Source of the DNA: Amycolatopsis sp. DSM 110486
Lineage (GTDB): Bacteria; Actinomycetota; Actinomycetes; Mycobacteriales; Pseudonocardiaceae
DNA length: 64,000 nt
Assembly (NCBI RefSeq): GCF_019468465.1
Contig: NZ_CP080519.1
Span: 1,689,001 to 1,753,000 of the forward strand
Direction: 5' to 3'
In this document: one piece after another, positions 53,107 to 59,956 of the stretch
Position numbering within the stretch: the stretch's first letter is position 1
Layout of the letters: each line of letters opens with the position of its first letter
Notes under the pieces: model-generated
What the model saw: the letters and a program-made list of their open reading frames with translations, nothing else
Told to the model about the DNA's origin: nothing
Databases searched by the model: none
Program-made: the position numbers and the translations under genes

Positions 53107-54000
53107 TCAGGCGATCCGGCTGCTGTCCGTCCACTTTCTCAACCGCGGTGGCACCCGCTTCTCGAGCCCGTAGTTCTCCAGGTGCGCCGAAAACACCTCG
53201 TCAAAGGCGTTCTGCACTGTCTCCGTGTCCCACACCTGCCGCTCGAGGATCGGCTGCTTCAGGAACGGCTGCCCCATCACATGCAGCTGTGGCCCGTTGC
53301 ACCGGATCATCTGCCCGGTGATCCCCGCCGACCCATCCCCGAGCAGGAACAACACCACCGGCGCGATCCGGGACGGCGTCCGCTCCGGCGGACAAGCCCG
53401 CAACGCCCGCTCCGACTTCCACACCATCCGCGTGTGCGCCACCGGGCAGACCGCGTTGGCCCGGATCCCGTGCTCCTCCAGGTCCAGGGCCCACGAATAC
53501 GTCAACGAAGCGACCGCGCCCTTCGAAGCCGCGTACACGCCGAGCTTGCGCTGCCCCAGCGAAGCGCCCGACGAAATATTCACGATGGACCCGTGAATCC
53601 CCCCGGCGACCATCGCCTTGATCGCCGCCAGCCCCGTGTACATCACGCCCAGGACGTTGACCTCGACCAGCTCCCTGGCCTGGTCGACGTTGTCGTCCCA
53701 CGGCAGGGACTCGTAGTTGAGCCCGGCATTGTTGACCAGGCCGTCGATCCGCCCGAACTCGCCCACGCACAGGTCCACGATCGCCTGGGCCTGCGCCGGG
53801 TCGGCCACGCTGTGTCCACTCGCGACGGCCCGGCCGCCGTGCTGCCGGATCGTCTCGGCCGTGCGCTCGGCGAGCCCGGCGTCGACGTCGTTGACCACCA
53901 CGGCCCCGCCCGCGCGGGCCACGTGCACGGCGAACGCCTCGCCGAGTCCCCGGCCTGCGCCTGTGACGACCACGGCCTTGTCCTGCATGAGCCTGTCCAT
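53107..54000 (-). CDS. SDR-family oxidoreductase with extended C-terminal region
   Basis: A 297-residue SDR: VVVTGAGRGLGEAFAVHVARAGG, NNAGLNYE, NISSGASLGQRKLGVYAASKGAVAS (Ser, Tyr, Lys) and a ~50-residue C-terminal extension beyond the usual SDR end, seen in MFE-type or carveol-like dehydrogenase relatives. The ATG at 54000 has GGGGAG upstream; an earlier ATG lacks one. Probably an acyl or hydroxy-compound dehydrogenase, separated by a short convergent gap from the acyl-CoA synthetase gene. Confidence 0.9.
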   Translation of the reverse strand: MDRLMQDKAVVVTGAGRGLGEAFAVHVARAGGAVVVNDVDAGLAERTAETIRQHGGRAVASGHSVADPAQAQAIVDLCVGEFGRIDGLVNNAGLNYESLPWDDNVDQARELVEVNVLGVMYTGLAAIKAMVAGGIHGSIVNISSGASLGQRKLGVYAASKGAVASLTYSWALDLEEHGIRANAVCPVAHTRMVWKSERALRACPPERTPSRIAPVVLFLLGDGSAGITGQMIRCNGPQLHVMGQPFLKQPILERQVWDTETVQNAFDEVFSAHLENYGLEKRVPPRLRKWTDSSRIA

Positions 54001-54390
54001 GACTATCTCCCCACTGCCAGGCACCGGCGGGGCGAGGGGTCGCTCCGCCGGGCTCATTTCCAGTGTTGGGCCATTCGGCACGGGATACAGGGCGACGGCG
54101 ACGAACGGTGTCCGTCATGCGACGAGCGAGTTACGCACGATCAGTCCTCCGGTACCTCCGGACTGGTCAGCACCGACCGGGAATGGGTTCCGCCCGGCCT
54201 GGTCCGGGCCCCCTTGAACAGCCCAACCCGGGAGAACGCTGGTTCTACTGTTCGCCCGCGCGTAATCAGCGGCATACTGATTGTTGTCCCACTGCCGGGA
54301 ACTGTGACTCCCTCGGGGTCGCCGTCACAGTCCAGGCAGAATGCCCACCGGACACGTTCACCCGATCGGGGAGGGGGAAGTGGTCACCCT
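54001..54390. other. Divergent promoter region between SDR and MFS exporter genes
   Basis: About 390 bases without a supported gene. It holds the SD of the SDR gene, an inverted repeat CAGTCC-N12-GGACTG (54142-54165) and the purine-rich SD of the MFS gene (54371-54380). No regulator gene is adjacent. Confidence 0.5.
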
Positions 54391-55605
54391 GTGACGACCC
54401 ACGCCACGCCACGGCTGACGGCGCCACTGCGGAACGTCGAGTACCGCGTTCTGTGGGCGGCCGAGGCCATTTCGAGCGCGGGCGACCAGCTGGCGAAGGT
54501 GGCGCTCGCCATCCTCGTCTACAACCGCACCGGCTCGGCCCTCTGGGCCGCCGTCGTCTACGCCCTCACGTTCCTCCCCGCGCTGGCGGGCGGGCTCGGG
54601 CTGTCCTTCCTCGCCGACCGCTACCGGCGCCGCGCGGTGCTGAGCGTGAGCGCCGCGGTGCAGGCGGTGCTCGTGGGGCTGATGAGCCTGCCGGGCATGC
54701 CACTGGCCGTGCTGTGCAGCCTGCTCGTGGCCGTGCAGCTGGCCGCGTCACCCGCCAACGCCGCGCAGAACGCCATCACGCGCGAAGTGTTCACCGACGA
54801 TGAAATCTACCTGCGCAGCCAGGACCTGCGCGGGATCACCACCAACACGGTGATGCTGGTGGGGCTCGCGGGCGGCGGCCTCCTGGTGACGTTCGTGGGC
54901 ACGTCGTGGGCGCTGGCGATCGACGCCGTGAGCTTCGCCGTTGCCTCGCTCATCGTGCGCGTGTGGGTGCACGATCGCCCGGCCGCGGGCGGCGAGCAGA
55001 CGACGTGGTTCGGGGCCACGCGGTTCGTGTTCGGACAGCGCAGGCTGCGGGTGCTGATCGCGCTGTCGTGGCTGGTCGGGCTCGCGGTGGTCCCCGAAGG
55101 GCTCGCGGCTCCGCTGGCGGAGCAGCTCGGCGCGTCGTCCACGGCCGTCGGCTGGCTGCTGGCTGCCGACCCACTGGGGTTCGTGGCCGGTGCCTACTTG
55201 CTCTCGAAGTTCGCGTCCGCCCAGGTCAGGCTGCGTCTGCTGGGCATCCTCGCGACGACGTCGCTGGCCCTGCTCGCGCTGTTCCTGCTCCAGCCGAACC
55301 TGGCGCTGGCTCTCGTGCTCCTCGCACTGGCGGGTGCGATGGGCGCGTACATCATCACGGTCACCGCGACGTTCGCCACCTGGGTGCCGAACGAGCTGCG
55401 CGGCGGCGCCGGCGGGCTCTACCGCACCGGGCTGCGGGTCGCGCAGGGAGTCGGGGTCGCGCTGGGTGGGGTGGTTGCCCAGGTGACCGGGTCCGCGGTC
55501 ACCGCCATCGCGCTCGCCGGTCTGCTCGGCGTGGCGCTGGCCATCCCCACCGCCTTCTCATGGACCCGGGTGCGGCACGCGGTCGCAGCCGATACCGGGC
55601 TCTGA
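54391..55605 (+). CDS. MFS transporter (multidrug/siderophore exporter type)
   Basis: A 404-residue protein with 12 hydrophobic segments. It begins RNVEYRVLWAAEAISSAGDQLAKVALAILVYNRTGSALWAA, the opening of the MFS_3/EntS-like drug or siderophore exporter group, with FLADRYRRRAVL between helices 2 and 3 and an ITREVF..LRSQDLRG loop. The GTG start follows GAGGGGGAAG at about 10 bases; the long open frame before it has no start with an SD and translates to Pro/Arg-rich noise. It is convergent with the micro-ORF array. Confidence 0.9.
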   Translation: MTTHATPRLTAPLRNVEYRVLWAAEAISSAGDQLAKVALAILVYNRTGSALWAAVVYALTFLPALAGGLGLSFLADRYRRRAVLSVSAAVQAVLVGLMSLPGMPLAVLCSLLVAVQLAASPANAAQNAITREVFTDDEIYLRSQDLRGITTNTVMLVGLAGGGLLVTFVGTSWALAIDAVSFAVASLIVRVWVHDRPAAGGEQTTWFGATRFVFGQRRLRVLIALSWLVGLAVVPEGLAAPLAEQLGASSTAVGWLLAADPLGFVAGAYLLSKFASAQVRLRLLGILATTSLALLALFLLQPNLALALVLLALAGAMGAYIITVTATFATWVPNELRGGAGGLYRTGLRVAQGVGVALGGVVAQVTGSAVTAIALAGLLGVALAIPTAFSWTRVRHAVAADTGL

Positions 55606-55634
55606 GTCGTGGCCGGCTCGTTCACCGGCCGGGG

Positions 55635-55682: not shown

Positions 55683-55703
55683 TCAGGCTTCGCGGTCACG
55701 CAT
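55683..55703 (-). CDS. Micro-ORF 4: hexapeptide MRDREA
   Basis: A 21-base reading frame with an ATG start and TGA stop, encoding MRDREA. AAAGGAG sits about eight bases upstream. Its 21 bases are identical to micro-ORF 2. It is the last of four micro-ORFs on the minus strand and is followed by a stem-loop. I know of no described family with this peptide. A translated leader or signalling peptide is possible; see the finding on the array. Confidence 0.5.
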   Translation of the reverse strand: MRDREA

Positions 55704-55757
55704 CGCGACTCTCCTTTGCTCACGCTGTCACGAACTCTTGGTTGCCGGTCACCGGAA

Positions 55758-55778
55758 TCACGCCTCGCGGTCACGCAC
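55758..55778 (-). CDS. Micro-ORF 3: hexapeptide MRDREA (GTG start)
   Basis: A 21-base frame, GTG to TGA, encoding the same peptide as micro-ORFs 2 and 4. AGGAGGT lies eight bases upstream. It differs from the other copies at three bases: ATG to GTG, GAA to GAG and GCC to GCG. All three preserve start function or amino acid. It is followed by the 11-bp palindrome CCGGT-C-ACCGG (55745-55755). Confidence 0.5.
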   Translation of the reverse strand: MRDREA

Positions 55779-55839
55779 GGTCGGACACCTCCTCGAACTG
55801 AGTGCACTGACAATTTCCGGGCAAACAGACAAGAACGAT

Positions 55840-55860
55840 TCAGGCTTCGCGGTCACGCAT
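55840..55860 (-). CDS. Micro-ORF 2: hexapeptide MRDREA
   Basis: A 21-base frame, ATG to TGA, encoding MRDREA, with AGGAGGT about nine bases upstream. It can also be read as the last six codons of a 24-residue frame that begins at the ATG touching the micro-ORF 1 stop (55914), so translation could enter either by coupling from micro-ORF 1 or at its own SD. Confidence 0.5.
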   Translation of the reverse strand: MRDREA

Positions 55861-55914
55861 CGGGAAAACACCTCCTGGAGGGCACGGCTCAGCGACTGGT
55901 GTTGCAATTCGCAT

Positions 55915-55932
55915 TCAGGGTTCACCAGCCAT
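55915..55932 (-). CDS. Micro-ORF 1: pentapeptide MAGEP
   Basis: An 18-base frame, ATG to TGA, encoding MAGEP, with GGAGGT 11 bases upstream. It is the first of the four micro-ORFs. Its stop is directly followed by an ATG (TGAATG) that opens a frame running into micro-ORF 2. The peptide is unrelated to MRDREA. Confidence 0.45.
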   Translation of the reverse strand: MAGEP

Positions 55933-56001: not shown

Positions 56002-56109
56002 CCACCGCCGGGAAGTCGGTGAGTGCGATGATACCGGTAAGCGATAACAGCACCACAGTGGATACCACCAGACCCGCACCACCCGAGAGACCGGAGGAGG
56101 CCGAGCCCG

Positions 56110-57558
56110 ATGCCCGAGAACGGACACGCGCACGGTGAACCGACGGACTCCAATCGCGGGGTACCCACACCCTCCCATGATCACGCACCGAAGTCCCAAG
56201 ATTCTTCCGGGGATGCACACAGTGCTACACAAAAAGCAACCGCGCGATCGCAGGGTGTCGGCAAACGGCTCGGTGAGTTGATTTCCGGCAATCCCGTGCG
56301 GTCGTGGGATCTGTGGACCAAGCCGCGGCCGATGATCGTTTTCCTGCTTTCCTGGGAAGCGCTTGCCGTCGGCCTGCTGACGTACGGGATCGTCACCGGC
56401 GGGCCCACCACGGCTCTGGACTGGGCCCGGTTCGGCATCCTCGCCGTGTGCGCCACGGTGCACATCCAGCTCACGCGCCGGCAGGAGGAGCGGCGGCGCA
56501 ACCGCGTGACGGCCGTCCACATCGACCTGTCGGGGATCTGGGTGTTCCCCGGCGCACTGCTGCTGCCGATCCACTTGACACTGCTGCTGATCGTCATCGT
56601 CCGCGGGCAGCGGTGGTTCAACTCGCGGCGGCCTCCGCACAAGTTCGTGTTCACCTCGTTCACGCACGCCGTGTCGGCCTTGGCGGCGCACCAGCTCTAC
56701 CAGACTTTCGCCTCGGCGGAGCTCGAGAACCTCTCCCCGGGCAATTCACTGAGGCTCTTCGGCATCCTCATGCTGGTCGGCTTCTGTTACGCGGCGCTGC
56801 AGGCGATCGTCATCGGCAGCTTGCTCGCACTGGGCGGAACTTCCGCCCCGACGCTGAGCAACGTGCTGGGCACCAAGGATGACAACCTGCTGGAGCTCTC
56901 GACAATCGGTCTCGGCACGATCGCCACGATCCTCCTGGTGAACTTCCCACCGGCGATCGTGATCCTGGTGCTCATCACCGTGCTGGGCAACCGGCTCGCC
57001 GAGATCAACCAGCTGCAGTCCGAGGCGCGCACGGACCCGAAGACCGGCATCTTCAACGTGCGCGGGTGGTCCGAATCAGCCGACCGCGCCTTGACGCGAG
57101 CCGCACGCAGCAACGAAATGCTGGCGCTGCTGATGATCGATCTGGACCATTTCAAGTGGATCAACGACACCTACGGCCACCCCGCGGGCGACGACGTCCT
57201 GCGCACCGTGGCCCAGACCTTGGACGACATCACGCGTCCCAGGGACATCATCGGCCGCTTCGGCGGCGAGGAATTCCTGATCCTGCTGCCGGACGTGGAC
57301 CAAACGGCCGCCAAGGTCGCGGCCGAACGGATCCGTCTCGCGATCGCCGAACAGCAGATCGTGACCACCGACAAACGCGGCGGGCGCGCCCGCATCACCG
57401 GTCGGACCACCTCGATCGGAGTGGCACTGCTCGGGCCGAACGGATCGACGGTGGAACAGTTGCTGCACGCGGCCGACGCCGCCGTGTATACCGCGAAGGA
57501 AGGCGGCCGGAATCAAGTCCGGTTCGCCGACGCGGATCCGCCGCCGCGCGTGGCCTGA
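56110..57558 (+). CDS. Membrane diguanylate cyclase (GGDEF domain)
   Basis: A 482-residue protein. Residues about 75-290 form six to eight membrane helices (MASE-like sensor), followed by a GGDEF domain with GGEEF at 385-389 and IDLDHFKWINDTYGHPAGDD (Mg and nucleotide binding). RPRD at 376-379, five residues before GGEEF, is a canonical RxxD inhibitory site, so c-di-GMP feedback is expected. No EAL domain is present. GGAGGAGG precedes the ATG. It is divergent from the micro-ORF array, which uses the same intergenic region. Confidence 0.95.
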   Translation: MPENGHAHGEPTDSNRGVPTPSHDHAPKSQDSSGDAHSATQKATARSQGVGKRLGELISGNPVRSWDLWTKPRPMIVFLLSWEALAVGLLTYGIVTGGPTTALDWARFGILAVCATVHIQLTRRQEERRRNRVTAVHIDLSGIWVFPGALLLPIHLTLLLIVIVRGQRWFNSRRPPHKFVFTSFTHAVSALAAHQLYQTFASAELENLSPGNSLRLFGILMLVGFCYAALQAIVIGSLLALGGTSAPTLSNVLGTKDDNLLELSTIGLGTIATILLVNFPPAIVILVLITVLGNRLAEINQLQSEARTDPKTGIFNVRGWSESADRALTRAARSNEMLALLMIDLDHFKWINDTYGHPAGDDVLRTVAQTLDDITRPRDIIGRFGGEEFLILLPDVDQTAAKVAAERIRLAIAEQQIVTTDKRGGRARITGRTTSIGVALLGPNGSTVEQLLHAADAAVYTAKEGGRNQVRFADADPPPRVA

Positions 57559-57796: not shown

Positions 57797-59956
57797 ATGC
57801 CCGCCTCCGACGACCGTCCTCCGGCCGCCGCTCGCGCCCGCCGTCCCTGGTCGACGTCGGGCTGGCTGCTGCTGGTGCTCTTCGTCGTCTTCGGCTTCGG
57901 GCTCATCGCCTCGCGCCCGGCGTCACCGCCGGACCAGGGACCGCCGACCGGCGACGTGCTGGCCGCGCAGAACGCCATCGCCGCGCTGACCCACCCCGGC
58001 CCGCAGCCCACCGCGCTGGCGCTCCTGCCCGAGGACTTCACCGCCGTCAGCGGCGTGACGCCGGGTGCGCTGGCGGCGCGCGACGGGACCGTTCGCGCCG
58101 TCCACGTCGACGGCGGGTGCTCCACCCCTTGGGGCGACGACAACACCAAGTGGGACTACGCGGTGCCGTGCAAGGCCCACGACCTGGGCTACGACCTGCT
58201 GCGCTACGCGGACAAGAAGGGCCACCCGCTCGACCAGAGCGTGCGGGCCTCACTCGACGCGCGGCTGTCGCAGGACATGCACCACGCGTGCGTGGTGAAC
58301 CCGATGGGCTCGCCGGGCACCTGCCAGGTCGTCGCCACGCTCTACTCCGCCGGGCTCGTCGTGAACTCGTGGCACCAGCGGTGGGGACCGCCGGTCGCGG
58401 ACCCGATCGGGCCGATGGTCGCCGGCGTCCTCGTGATCGGCTGCCTGCTCGTGTTCCGGCTGCGCGGCTGGCACACGGCCCGGCGCGTCACCCCGCGACC
58501 CGCTCGCGCCGCGACCGGTCCTCCCACGCGCTGGGCCGTGCTCGGCGCTGCCTCGGCCGTGCTGCTCGTGCTCGGCGAATCGGCGACGGCGCTGGCCGAC
58601 TGGGCGGGCGCGCCCGAGTCCGCGTGGTGGCCGCTGACGTGGCTCGCGCAGCTCACGCCGCTGCTGTTCTTCGCGGGCGGCTACGCGAACGTCACCGGCT
58701 GGCTGGCCGAACGCGACCGCGGCTACCGCCACTACCTCGCCGAGCGCGCGAGCCCGCTGCTCCGCCCCGCGTTGATCTTCGCTGTGGTCGCCCTGCTCGT
58801 CCCGCTGGCGCTGGAGCTGCTCGGCATCCCCGCAGGCACGAACGCGACGGTCATGCGGATCGCGCTGCACCCGCTGTGGCTGCTGGGCGTGTACCTGCTG
58901 ACGATCGTCTGCGCGCCCGCGCTGCTCGCGCTGCACCGCCGCGCCGGGCTGTGGTCGGTGGCCGGCCTGCTTGCGCTCGTCGTCGCGGGCGAGGCCGTCG
59001 CGGCCTGGTCCGGCTCGCCGCTGCCCGGTTACGGCGCCACCCTGGCGCTCGCGCTGCTGGCCCAGCAGGTCGCGTTCGCCCACGCCGACGGGGTGCGGCT
59101 CCCCCGGCCGGTGCTGGCAGGCGCCGCCGTGGCCGGGGTGGGCGCGCTGGCCGTGGCCACCTTCGCGCTCGGCGCGTCGCCGATCCTGCTGGGTAGCCCG
59201 GGCGCGCCCGCCGCGTTGTCAGCGCCGCCGTGGGAAGTCCTGCTGCTCGGCGTGACCCAGCTCGGCTTGGCGGGCCTGCTCGGCGGACGGCTGGTGCGCG
59301 TCGCGGCGCGGCCGCGGGTCAGCCGCGCGACCGGGTTCGTGCTGCGGGCGCCGATGAGCCTGTACCTGGCGTTCCTGGCGGCGATGCTGCTGCTCGTCGC
59401 CGTCGTCTACCTGCCGGGCCCGATCGCCGACGGGCTGAGTTGGCTCGTAAAGCCGCGCACCGCGATGGCGATCGCGCTGCTGCTCGTGCCGGCGGGGTGC
59501 GTGTTCTGGTGGTTCGAACGCCACCCGCGCGGCCACGGCGAACCCGCGCCGCCCCCGCCGAGACCCCGCACGGCCACCGGCTGGCGGCCGGTGCTGCTCA
59601 CGAGAGCGGCCGCCGCGCTCGGCATCGGCTTCGCGACACTCGGCGTCTTCGGGCTCGCGCTGGCCCGCTTCGGCGACGTCGCCGCCGATGCCGATTTCCT
59701 CGGCCTGCACCTCGACCCGGTGCAGAGCCTCGTGCACCTGCTTCTCGGCGTGCTCCTGCTGCACACCGTCCGCACGGGCGCCACCGCGTCGGCGGGCACG
59801 TGGTTCGTCTGCGCGCTCGCCTGTGGCCCGGCGCTGATGGTCTCGTCGGCCGGCCCGCCGACCGTGGTCCTGCACGCGGCGACGGCGGTGTTTGCGCTGG
59901 TCGCGGCCGTTTCGTGCCTGGTTCCCCGGCGCCGCGCTGCGAGCGCGACTTCTTGA
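57797..59956 (+). CDS. Phospholipase A2-like domain fused to a polytopic membrane region
   Basis: A 719-residue protein. After one transmembrane anchor (residues 22-40), residues about 60-185 form a prokaryotic phospholipase A2-like domain: C108..WGDDNTKWDYAVPC125KAHDLGYDLLRY, with the His128-Asp129 catalytic pair and paired cysteines. From about residue 200 the protein has 12 or more hydrophobic segments resembling the DUF1624/acyltransferase-3-like membrane fold. An extracellular lipase joined to a membrane acyltransferase-like part suggests lipid remodelling. The ATG has only a weak SD. Nothing upstream clearly extends it. Confidence 0.8.
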   Translation: MPASDDRPPAAARARRPWSTSGWLLLVLFVVFGFGLIASRPASPPDQGPPTGDVLAAQNAIAALTHPGPQPTALALLPEDFTAVSGVTPGALAARDGTVRAVHVDGGCSTPWGDDNTKWDYAVPCKAHDLGYDLLRYADKKGHPLDQSVRASLDARLSQDMHHACVVNPMGSPGTCQVVATLYSAGLVVNSWHQRWGPPVADPIGPMVAGVLVIGCLLVFRLRGWHTARRVTPRPARAATGPPTRWAVLGAASAVLLVLGESATALADWAGAPESAWWPLTWLAQLTPLLFFAGGYANVTGWLAERDRGYRHYLAERASPLLRPALIFAVVALLVPLALELLGIPAGTNATVMRIALHPLWLLGVYLLTIVCAPALLALHRRAGLWSVAGLLALVVAGEAVAAWSGSPLPGYGATLALALLAQQVAFAHADGVRLPRPVLAGAAVAGVGALAVATFALGASPILLGSPGAPAALSAPPWEVLLLGVTQLGLAGLLGGRLVRVAARPRVSRATGFVLRAPMSLYLAFLAAMLLLVAVVYLPGPIADGLSWLVKPRTAMAIALLLVPAGCVFWWFERHPRGHGEPAPPPPRPRTATGWRPVLLTRAAAALGIGFATLGVFGLALARFGDVAADADFLGLHLDPVQSLVHLLLGVLLLHTVRTGATASAGTWFVCALACGPALMVSSAGPPTVVLHAATAVFALVAAVSCLVPRRRAASATS

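Follow-up and report, generated by a model that had tools for sequence, protein, structure and literature searches.

The stretch of DNA considered here (the window) is 64,000 nucleotides long and comes from the genome of Amycolatopsis sp. DSM 110486. Its minus strand carries a ladder of three very short open reading frames (ORFs), each encoding the hexapeptide MRDREA and each with its own Shine-Dalgarno (SD) sequence immediately 5′: unit 1 at 55840..55860 (ATG start, SD AGGAGG), which has homologous units elsewhere in the genus, unit 2 at 55758..55778 (GTG start, SD AGGAGG), and unit 3 at 55683..55703 (ATG start, SD AGGAG). Divergent from the ladder, on the plus strand at 56110..57558, lies a gene for a membrane sensor domain followed by a GGDEF diguanylate cyclase. 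Clusters of nearly identical short-peptide genes (5–8 residues) beside such a membrane enzyme, which makes cyclic di-GMP (c-di-GMP), are found in many soil actinobacteria and point to an undescribed peptide-signaling system.

The MRDREA ladder

A preliminary description, made from the letters of this DNA alone, had reported the three frames, and our analysis confirmed them, with AGGAG(G)-type SDs a few bases 5′ of each start. Equally borne out were its statements that the outer copies (units 1 and 3) are identical, that the middle copy differs at three positions, none of which alters start function or peptide, and that the DNA between the copies is unconserved. It had also counted a fourth frame, MAGEP at 55915..55932 on the minus strand. 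This frame exists and, where the same stretch is readable, is intact in the window genome (G000) and in G010, but in G047, G056, and G068 either its frame or its stop codon is disrupted, and MAGEP is no part of the system. No structured RNA was recognized at the ladder, which has no Rfam match and a fold z score of +2.24, with 98 of 100 shuffles folding at least as well.

Within the 11-Mb genome, RTGCGNGANCGNGANGCNTGA matches just the three MRDREA frames. Ladders were detected without peptide sequence as an input, as at least two SD-preceded ORFs of 4–10 codons that lie 40–200 nt apart and share at least three residues besides Met. On the two strands of the window there are 39 SD-preceded ORFs of this size, and the MRDREA ladder alone was flagged. 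SD strength and uniformity within ladders are partly built into this detector, which demands an SD core and three shared residues; the single-position excess of silent changes and the strand control given below are not. Its output includes a few false units (e.g. MTTPGPEQR, MTDSVQP, and SDHVEP/DDRVEP), which are kept in the counts.

Ladders in the genus and beyond

Searching related genomes for MRDREA-like frames, as the preliminary description had proposed, did uncover further units. The pattern M-R-[DE]-R-[DE]-A matches 20 of 80 genus genomes, and its reversed control matches none of the 80. M-x-DREA matches 21; the lone match in G027 resembles the end of a gene, and in G056 there is an additional lone match. 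Most of the other M-x-DREA genomes have three units, 71–117 nt apart. Eleven units, of the form MSDREA, are present in G005, and G047, G068, G070, and G079 hold mixtures of MSDREA, MMDREA, and MRDREA. Across 390 genomes of the family, nine further genomes match, three of which (G165, G208, and G209) have units at the same kind of locus; the other six matches are single, that of G261 adjoining another ladder and the remaining ones resembling chance.

Equivalent loci carry other peptides. The first 20 fetched loci whose cyclases are 30–49% identical to that of the window all have a ladder in the same place and orientation, with peptides of the SARDF, AGRDY, SSRDW, SNRDF, NRDL, NRDA/NRDG, and SRDF types. 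Two or more units were detected on the expected strand at 70 of 78 genus loci, at 22 of 30 loci in other genera of the family (drawn from 67 selected genomes, in which 45 places reached E ≤ 1e-25), and at all 14 loci in a second family of the class, versus none of the 122 opposite strands of these loci. The eight ladder-less genus loci comprise seven with one unit and that of G023, where a single MSDKGW with a weak SD was seen by eye. Among the eight ladder-less loci of other genera, five have one unit (G119, G342, G253, G208, and G139) and two have nothing (G201 and G220). The eighth, G385 (L140), has at the same kind of locus a single longer peptide, MSARRTPSRGDRDL, which ends in DRDL like the hexapeptides. 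Twenty more distant places, five of them from other families, yielded eight ladders, eight single units of like kind, and four cases with nothing convincing; the ladders include MSVRDW, MRDKIW, MRDNNWN, and MRANSWD, as well as MRSVQWA in a third family.

A named set of 73 loci from Amycolatopsis, Prauserella, Saccharomonospora, Thermocrispum, Haloechinothrix, Actinophytocola, and Qaidamihabitans contains 64 ladders, eight single units, and one locus with none (L348, at a contig end), with no ladder on any of the 73 opposite strands. Many of these loci come from the same genomes as the fetched set (e.g. L280 and G047), and the two sets overlap and are not independent. The longest ladder, L178 (G086), has 18 flagged units of the SRDW type, with decayed-looking copies and one TAA-ended copy in between. 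Across ladders the peptides span 5–8 codons (MRDREA, MSSRDF, MRNRES, MRDNTWT, MRGNSWD, and others). The other peptides at equivalent loci rule out MRDREA as a family-specific oddity; the system extends beyond MRDREA, which represents the form that a broader peptide family takes in one clade. In 246 genomes of the class, outside the family, the pattern SD-M-x-x-R-[DE]-[T..], to which the heptapeptide type is invisible, gave 17 matches in 16 genomes and never a ladder.

Selection on the peptide frames

Selection was assessed on 420 units from 115 ladders. Comparison within ladders gave 930 single-base codon differences, 867 silent and 63 replacing, where about 21% silent would be expected; adjacent units alone give 300 silent versus 29 replacing differences, and all 165 codon differences at residue 5 are silent. 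The demand for three shared residues limits replacing changes and cannot create silent ones. Spacers within ladders are 33% identical, and unit spacing, with a median of 74 nt, is uniform modulo 3. Together with the silent-change excess, these properties indicate that the frames and residues, not the DNA, are kept, and we take the comparison to establish that the frames are coding and under selection. The preliminary description had read selection on the MRDREA frame from a single ladder; the related loci, in which codons change and the peptide is kept, strongly support that reading.

Units start with ATG (197), GTG (200), or TTG (23) and have 5–8 codons in 416 of 420 cases and at most 10 in the rest, a few false units included. 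At least 6 nt of anti-SD complement precede 345 of the 420 units, compared with 2.6% of 8043 control starts, a difference partly built into the detector. TGA is the stop of 416 of the 420 units, which are not independent of one another, versus 90 of 118 ordinary genes.

Nothing beyond their small size speaks for the ladders being a product of chance or a non-coding repeat family. The detector raised no flag on either strand of 114 kb of control loci and none on the 122 opposite strands, and both the silent-change excess and the spacing uniform modulo 3 speak against this idea, to which we assign a negligible probability; strand control and silent-change excess have already refuted it.

The partner diguanylate cyclase

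When the N-terminal 306 residues of the window cyclase were used as query, the 20 genomes with matches at 61–100% identity were exactly the genomes with M-x-DREA ladders; in the rest of the 80 genus genomes the best matches were 30–49% identical, with G059 and G072 reaching merely 1e-17. This linkage shows the anchor of the ladders to be this subfamily of membrane diguanylate cyclases. GGDEF genes in general are not partners: 68 of 70 control regions are without a ladder, and both positives belong to G543, from the second family. The control comprised 12 genomes of other families plus G543; some of its regions cover the same gene, and the 1.5-kb flank may miss the gene start for long proteins among L210–L239.

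The GGDEF domain of the window cyclase matches PF00990 (E 2.1e-44). GGEEF is invariant in 44 of 44 aligned cyclases, and the RxxD feedback site (I-site), RPRD in the window and five residues before GGEEF, has R346 and D349 invariant in the same 44. The catalytic and feedback motifs are intact.

The signals sensed by membrane cyclases of filamentous actinobacteria are mostly unknown, as PMC6205966 states for several Streptomyces cyclases. The sensor domain of the ladder cyclase resembles that of MASE-domain diguanylate cyclases in being a multi-helix membrane sensor followed by GGDEF, but it matches no Pfam family over cut-off; MASE9 (PF20972) appears weakly in 4 of 44 sequences, with a best E of 0.0055. 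We know of no peptide-gene partner for MASE-type membrane-sensor cyclases. Over model residues 52–235, the predicted fold of the sensor resembles an S-component of energy-coupling factor (ECF) transporters, such as RibU, ThiT, and PanT. S-components bind their ligands with odd-numbered loops, and the odd-numbered loops are the most conserved in the sensor, where charge bias is predicted to place them in the cytoplasm. Unlike S-components, the sensor has an extra helix on each side, is fused to GGDEF, and has no ECF module. The extra helices and the charge bias imply an orientation opposite to that of S-components. Sequence homology to S-components is not claimed, as a sequence search against the PDB gave nothing convincing.

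Pairs of ladder and cyclase can occur more than once in a genome. The window genome has 11 GGDEF domains, and a second ladder was seen in it at G000:C1:5178443-5179220 (L205), with ten units of RDNNW with short extensions (MRDNNW type). Its neighbors are a GGDEF gene (C1:5176875-5178116, minus strand) and a convergent gene for a major facilitator superfamily (MFS) transporter (33% identity). No ladder adjoins C1:3456440, the third gene that encodes a related sensor. In six genomes a second type, with three to eight RNRES units, is located elsewhere. All six second-locus ladders or units checked with Pfam adjoin a GGDEF gene (L170, L171, L175, L153, and L158 lie outside this check).

Neighboring genes and alternative roles

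The usual third partner is an MFS transporter gene, at 54391..55605 on the plus strand of the window (likely start GTG 54391, 404 residues), which converges on the ladder. The same arrangement is found in 102 of 108 fetched family loci and 67 of 73 named loci, sets that overlap, and always in one orientation; at second-family loci the MFS gene converges in 14 of 14 cases, with 38–42% identity. A GGCCGG/CCGGCC inverted repeat at 55611-55630, located between unit 3 and the stop codon of the MFS gene, could be a two-way terminator without a T run. The peptides might control this transporter, with the cyclase a mere co-regulated neighbor, and the conservation of MFS genes beside ladders in two families is consistent with such a role. 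Loci of the RNRES type, however, keep the cyclase and not the MFS gene, which rules out the transporter as an obligate partner, and in G086 the MFS gene is displaced beyond a short-chain dehydrogenase (SDR) gene while the ladder stays by the cyclase. We therefore consider control of the transporter very unlikely.

The SDR gene itself (53107..54081, minus strand) has conserved counterparts at 62 of the 73 named loci. No P450 and no RRNPP-type tetratricopeptide repeat (TPR) receptor was found among the scanned ladder neighbors (GGDEF, MFS, and SDR). Alternatively, the peptides could be precursors of a modified product (a minimal ribosomally synthesized and post-translationally modified peptide (RiPP), an antibiotic, or a toxin), exported by the MFS transporter and regulated by the cyclase. 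The transporter beside most ladders is of the exporter-rich MFS_3/EntS-like kind, although all matches fall below equivalog cut-offs, repeated copies would increase yield, and the smallest known RiPP precursors are pentapeptides. Against a modified product, there is no conserved maturation enzyme, the common genes being the cyclase, the MFS transporter, and, in one family, the SDR; the units have no leader sequence, and RNRES loci lack the MFS gene. We regard this possibility as improbable.

Upstream of the ladder lies a conserved promoter- or operator-like element, GTATCATCGCA, at 56024..56034 on the minus strand. Its pattern, GTA[TC]CATCNCA, occurs once in the window; in 54 of the 72 unit-bearing named loci it precedes the first unit by 71–244 nt, on the ladder strand every time, and it occurs nowhere else in these loci. 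Downstream of the ladder no co-directional gene that it might regulate was found: the cyclase is divergent, and the next gene is convergent at the 67 named and 102 fetched loci noted above.

A ladder could instead act in cis: ribosomes that initiate, stall, or terminate again and again would determine how stable or how long its own transcript is (for example, an antisense RNA running into the MFS gene), and the released peptides would have no role. The many strong, regularly spaced SDs in a short transcript, the prevalence of TGA stops, and the direction of the transcript, which points at the 3′ end of the MFS gene, all suit such a device. A nascent-peptide-dependent stall could, moreover, still account for residue conservation. 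A cis-acting ladder would, on the other hand, have no co-directional target gene and, at RNRES loci, no MFS gene; residues 3–6 are kept through silent changes, single-unit loci are common, and clade-specific peptides track the cyclase. On balance we think it unlikely.

A candidate peptide ligand for the cyclase

Of the three roles guessed in the preliminary description, a signal peptide fits best. Ribosome traps are disfavored because amino acids are conserved through silent codon changes, and a translation-sensing leader because there is no co-directional gene to control, the next gene usually being convergent. Ladder units are like leader-peptide attenuators in being short, SD-led ORFs, but they come in repeated copies and lie outside the cyclase leader.

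A ligand–receptor relationship most simply accounts for a peptide gene that is under selection, is linked to a single sensor, has clade-cognate versions, and forms several pairs per genome. We lean, if only slightly, toward the peptide being the ligand of the divergently encoded cyclase, made from a polycistronic ladder and setting c-di-GMP synthesis. The ladder would be translated in vivo from a short polycistronic mRNA whose sole products are copies of (f)MRDREA, with a separate ribosome-binding site for each, and multiple copies would raise or buffer the peptide dose. We infer that (f)MRDREA binds the sensor domain, an S-component-like fold presumably turned with its ligand-side loops facing the cytoplasm, and thereby sets c-di-GMP synthesis. 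Export or clearance of the peptide is the probable task of the convergent MFS transporter, and the peptide could then be a cell-to-cell signal that cells take up again.

In a limited literature search we, like the preliminary description, found no described family of repeated hexapeptide genes of this kind. In Rap-Phr, PlcR-PapR, and Rgg-SHP, each gene normally encodes a single copy of the peptide within a longer pro-peptide, which is secreted and cleaved, and the peptides are read by cytosolic TPR-type receptors. The ladders share with these systems linear, unmodified peptides of 5–8 residues, a gene beside the receptor, clade-specific cognates, multiple paralogous pairs per genome, and, putatively, a cytosolic binding side. 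They differ in that the frame is the bare peptide, with no pro-peptide or secretion signal found, usually in 2–18 separate ORFs, and in standing beside a membrane cyclase. Biarylitide-type RiPP genes encode, in one copy, a pentapeptide with a Tyr/His or Tyr/Trp core and have an adjoining P450. Ladder units are likewise among the smallest coding genes known, but no P450 is among their conserved neighbors, and MRDREA has no aromatic residue. It is possible, though we stop somewhat short of favoring it, that the ladders represent a new class of signal: bare hexa- to octapeptides free of any pre-sequence, encoded in ladders that reach 18 micro-genes and sensed intracellularly by a receptor that joins an inverted S-component-like domain to a diguanylate cyclase, with several cognate pairs possible per genome.

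If this is true, peptide signaling or the state of translation initiation would be converted directly into c-di-GMP, a regulator of both development and antibiotic production in filamentous actinobacteria, and with the MFS transporter as exporter it would constitute a pheromone system of these organisms. The genera concerned make rifamycin- and vancomycin-type antibiotics. If the peptides are ligands, a whole receptor class gains a genetically encoded, easily synthesized ligand. Even without that role, hundreds of selected genes of 5–8 codons lie under every annotation cut-off, so that ideas of how small a bacterial gene can be need revision, and the ladders offer a natural test bed for peptide genes this short.

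Beyond the cyclase gene, the window holds at 57797-59956 (plus strand) a 719-residue ORF whose product has a prokaryotic phospholipase A2 domain and, after it, an extended membrane part; inside this ORF ARAGORN places a probably spurious tRNA-Thr(CGT) at 59453-59534 (plus strand).
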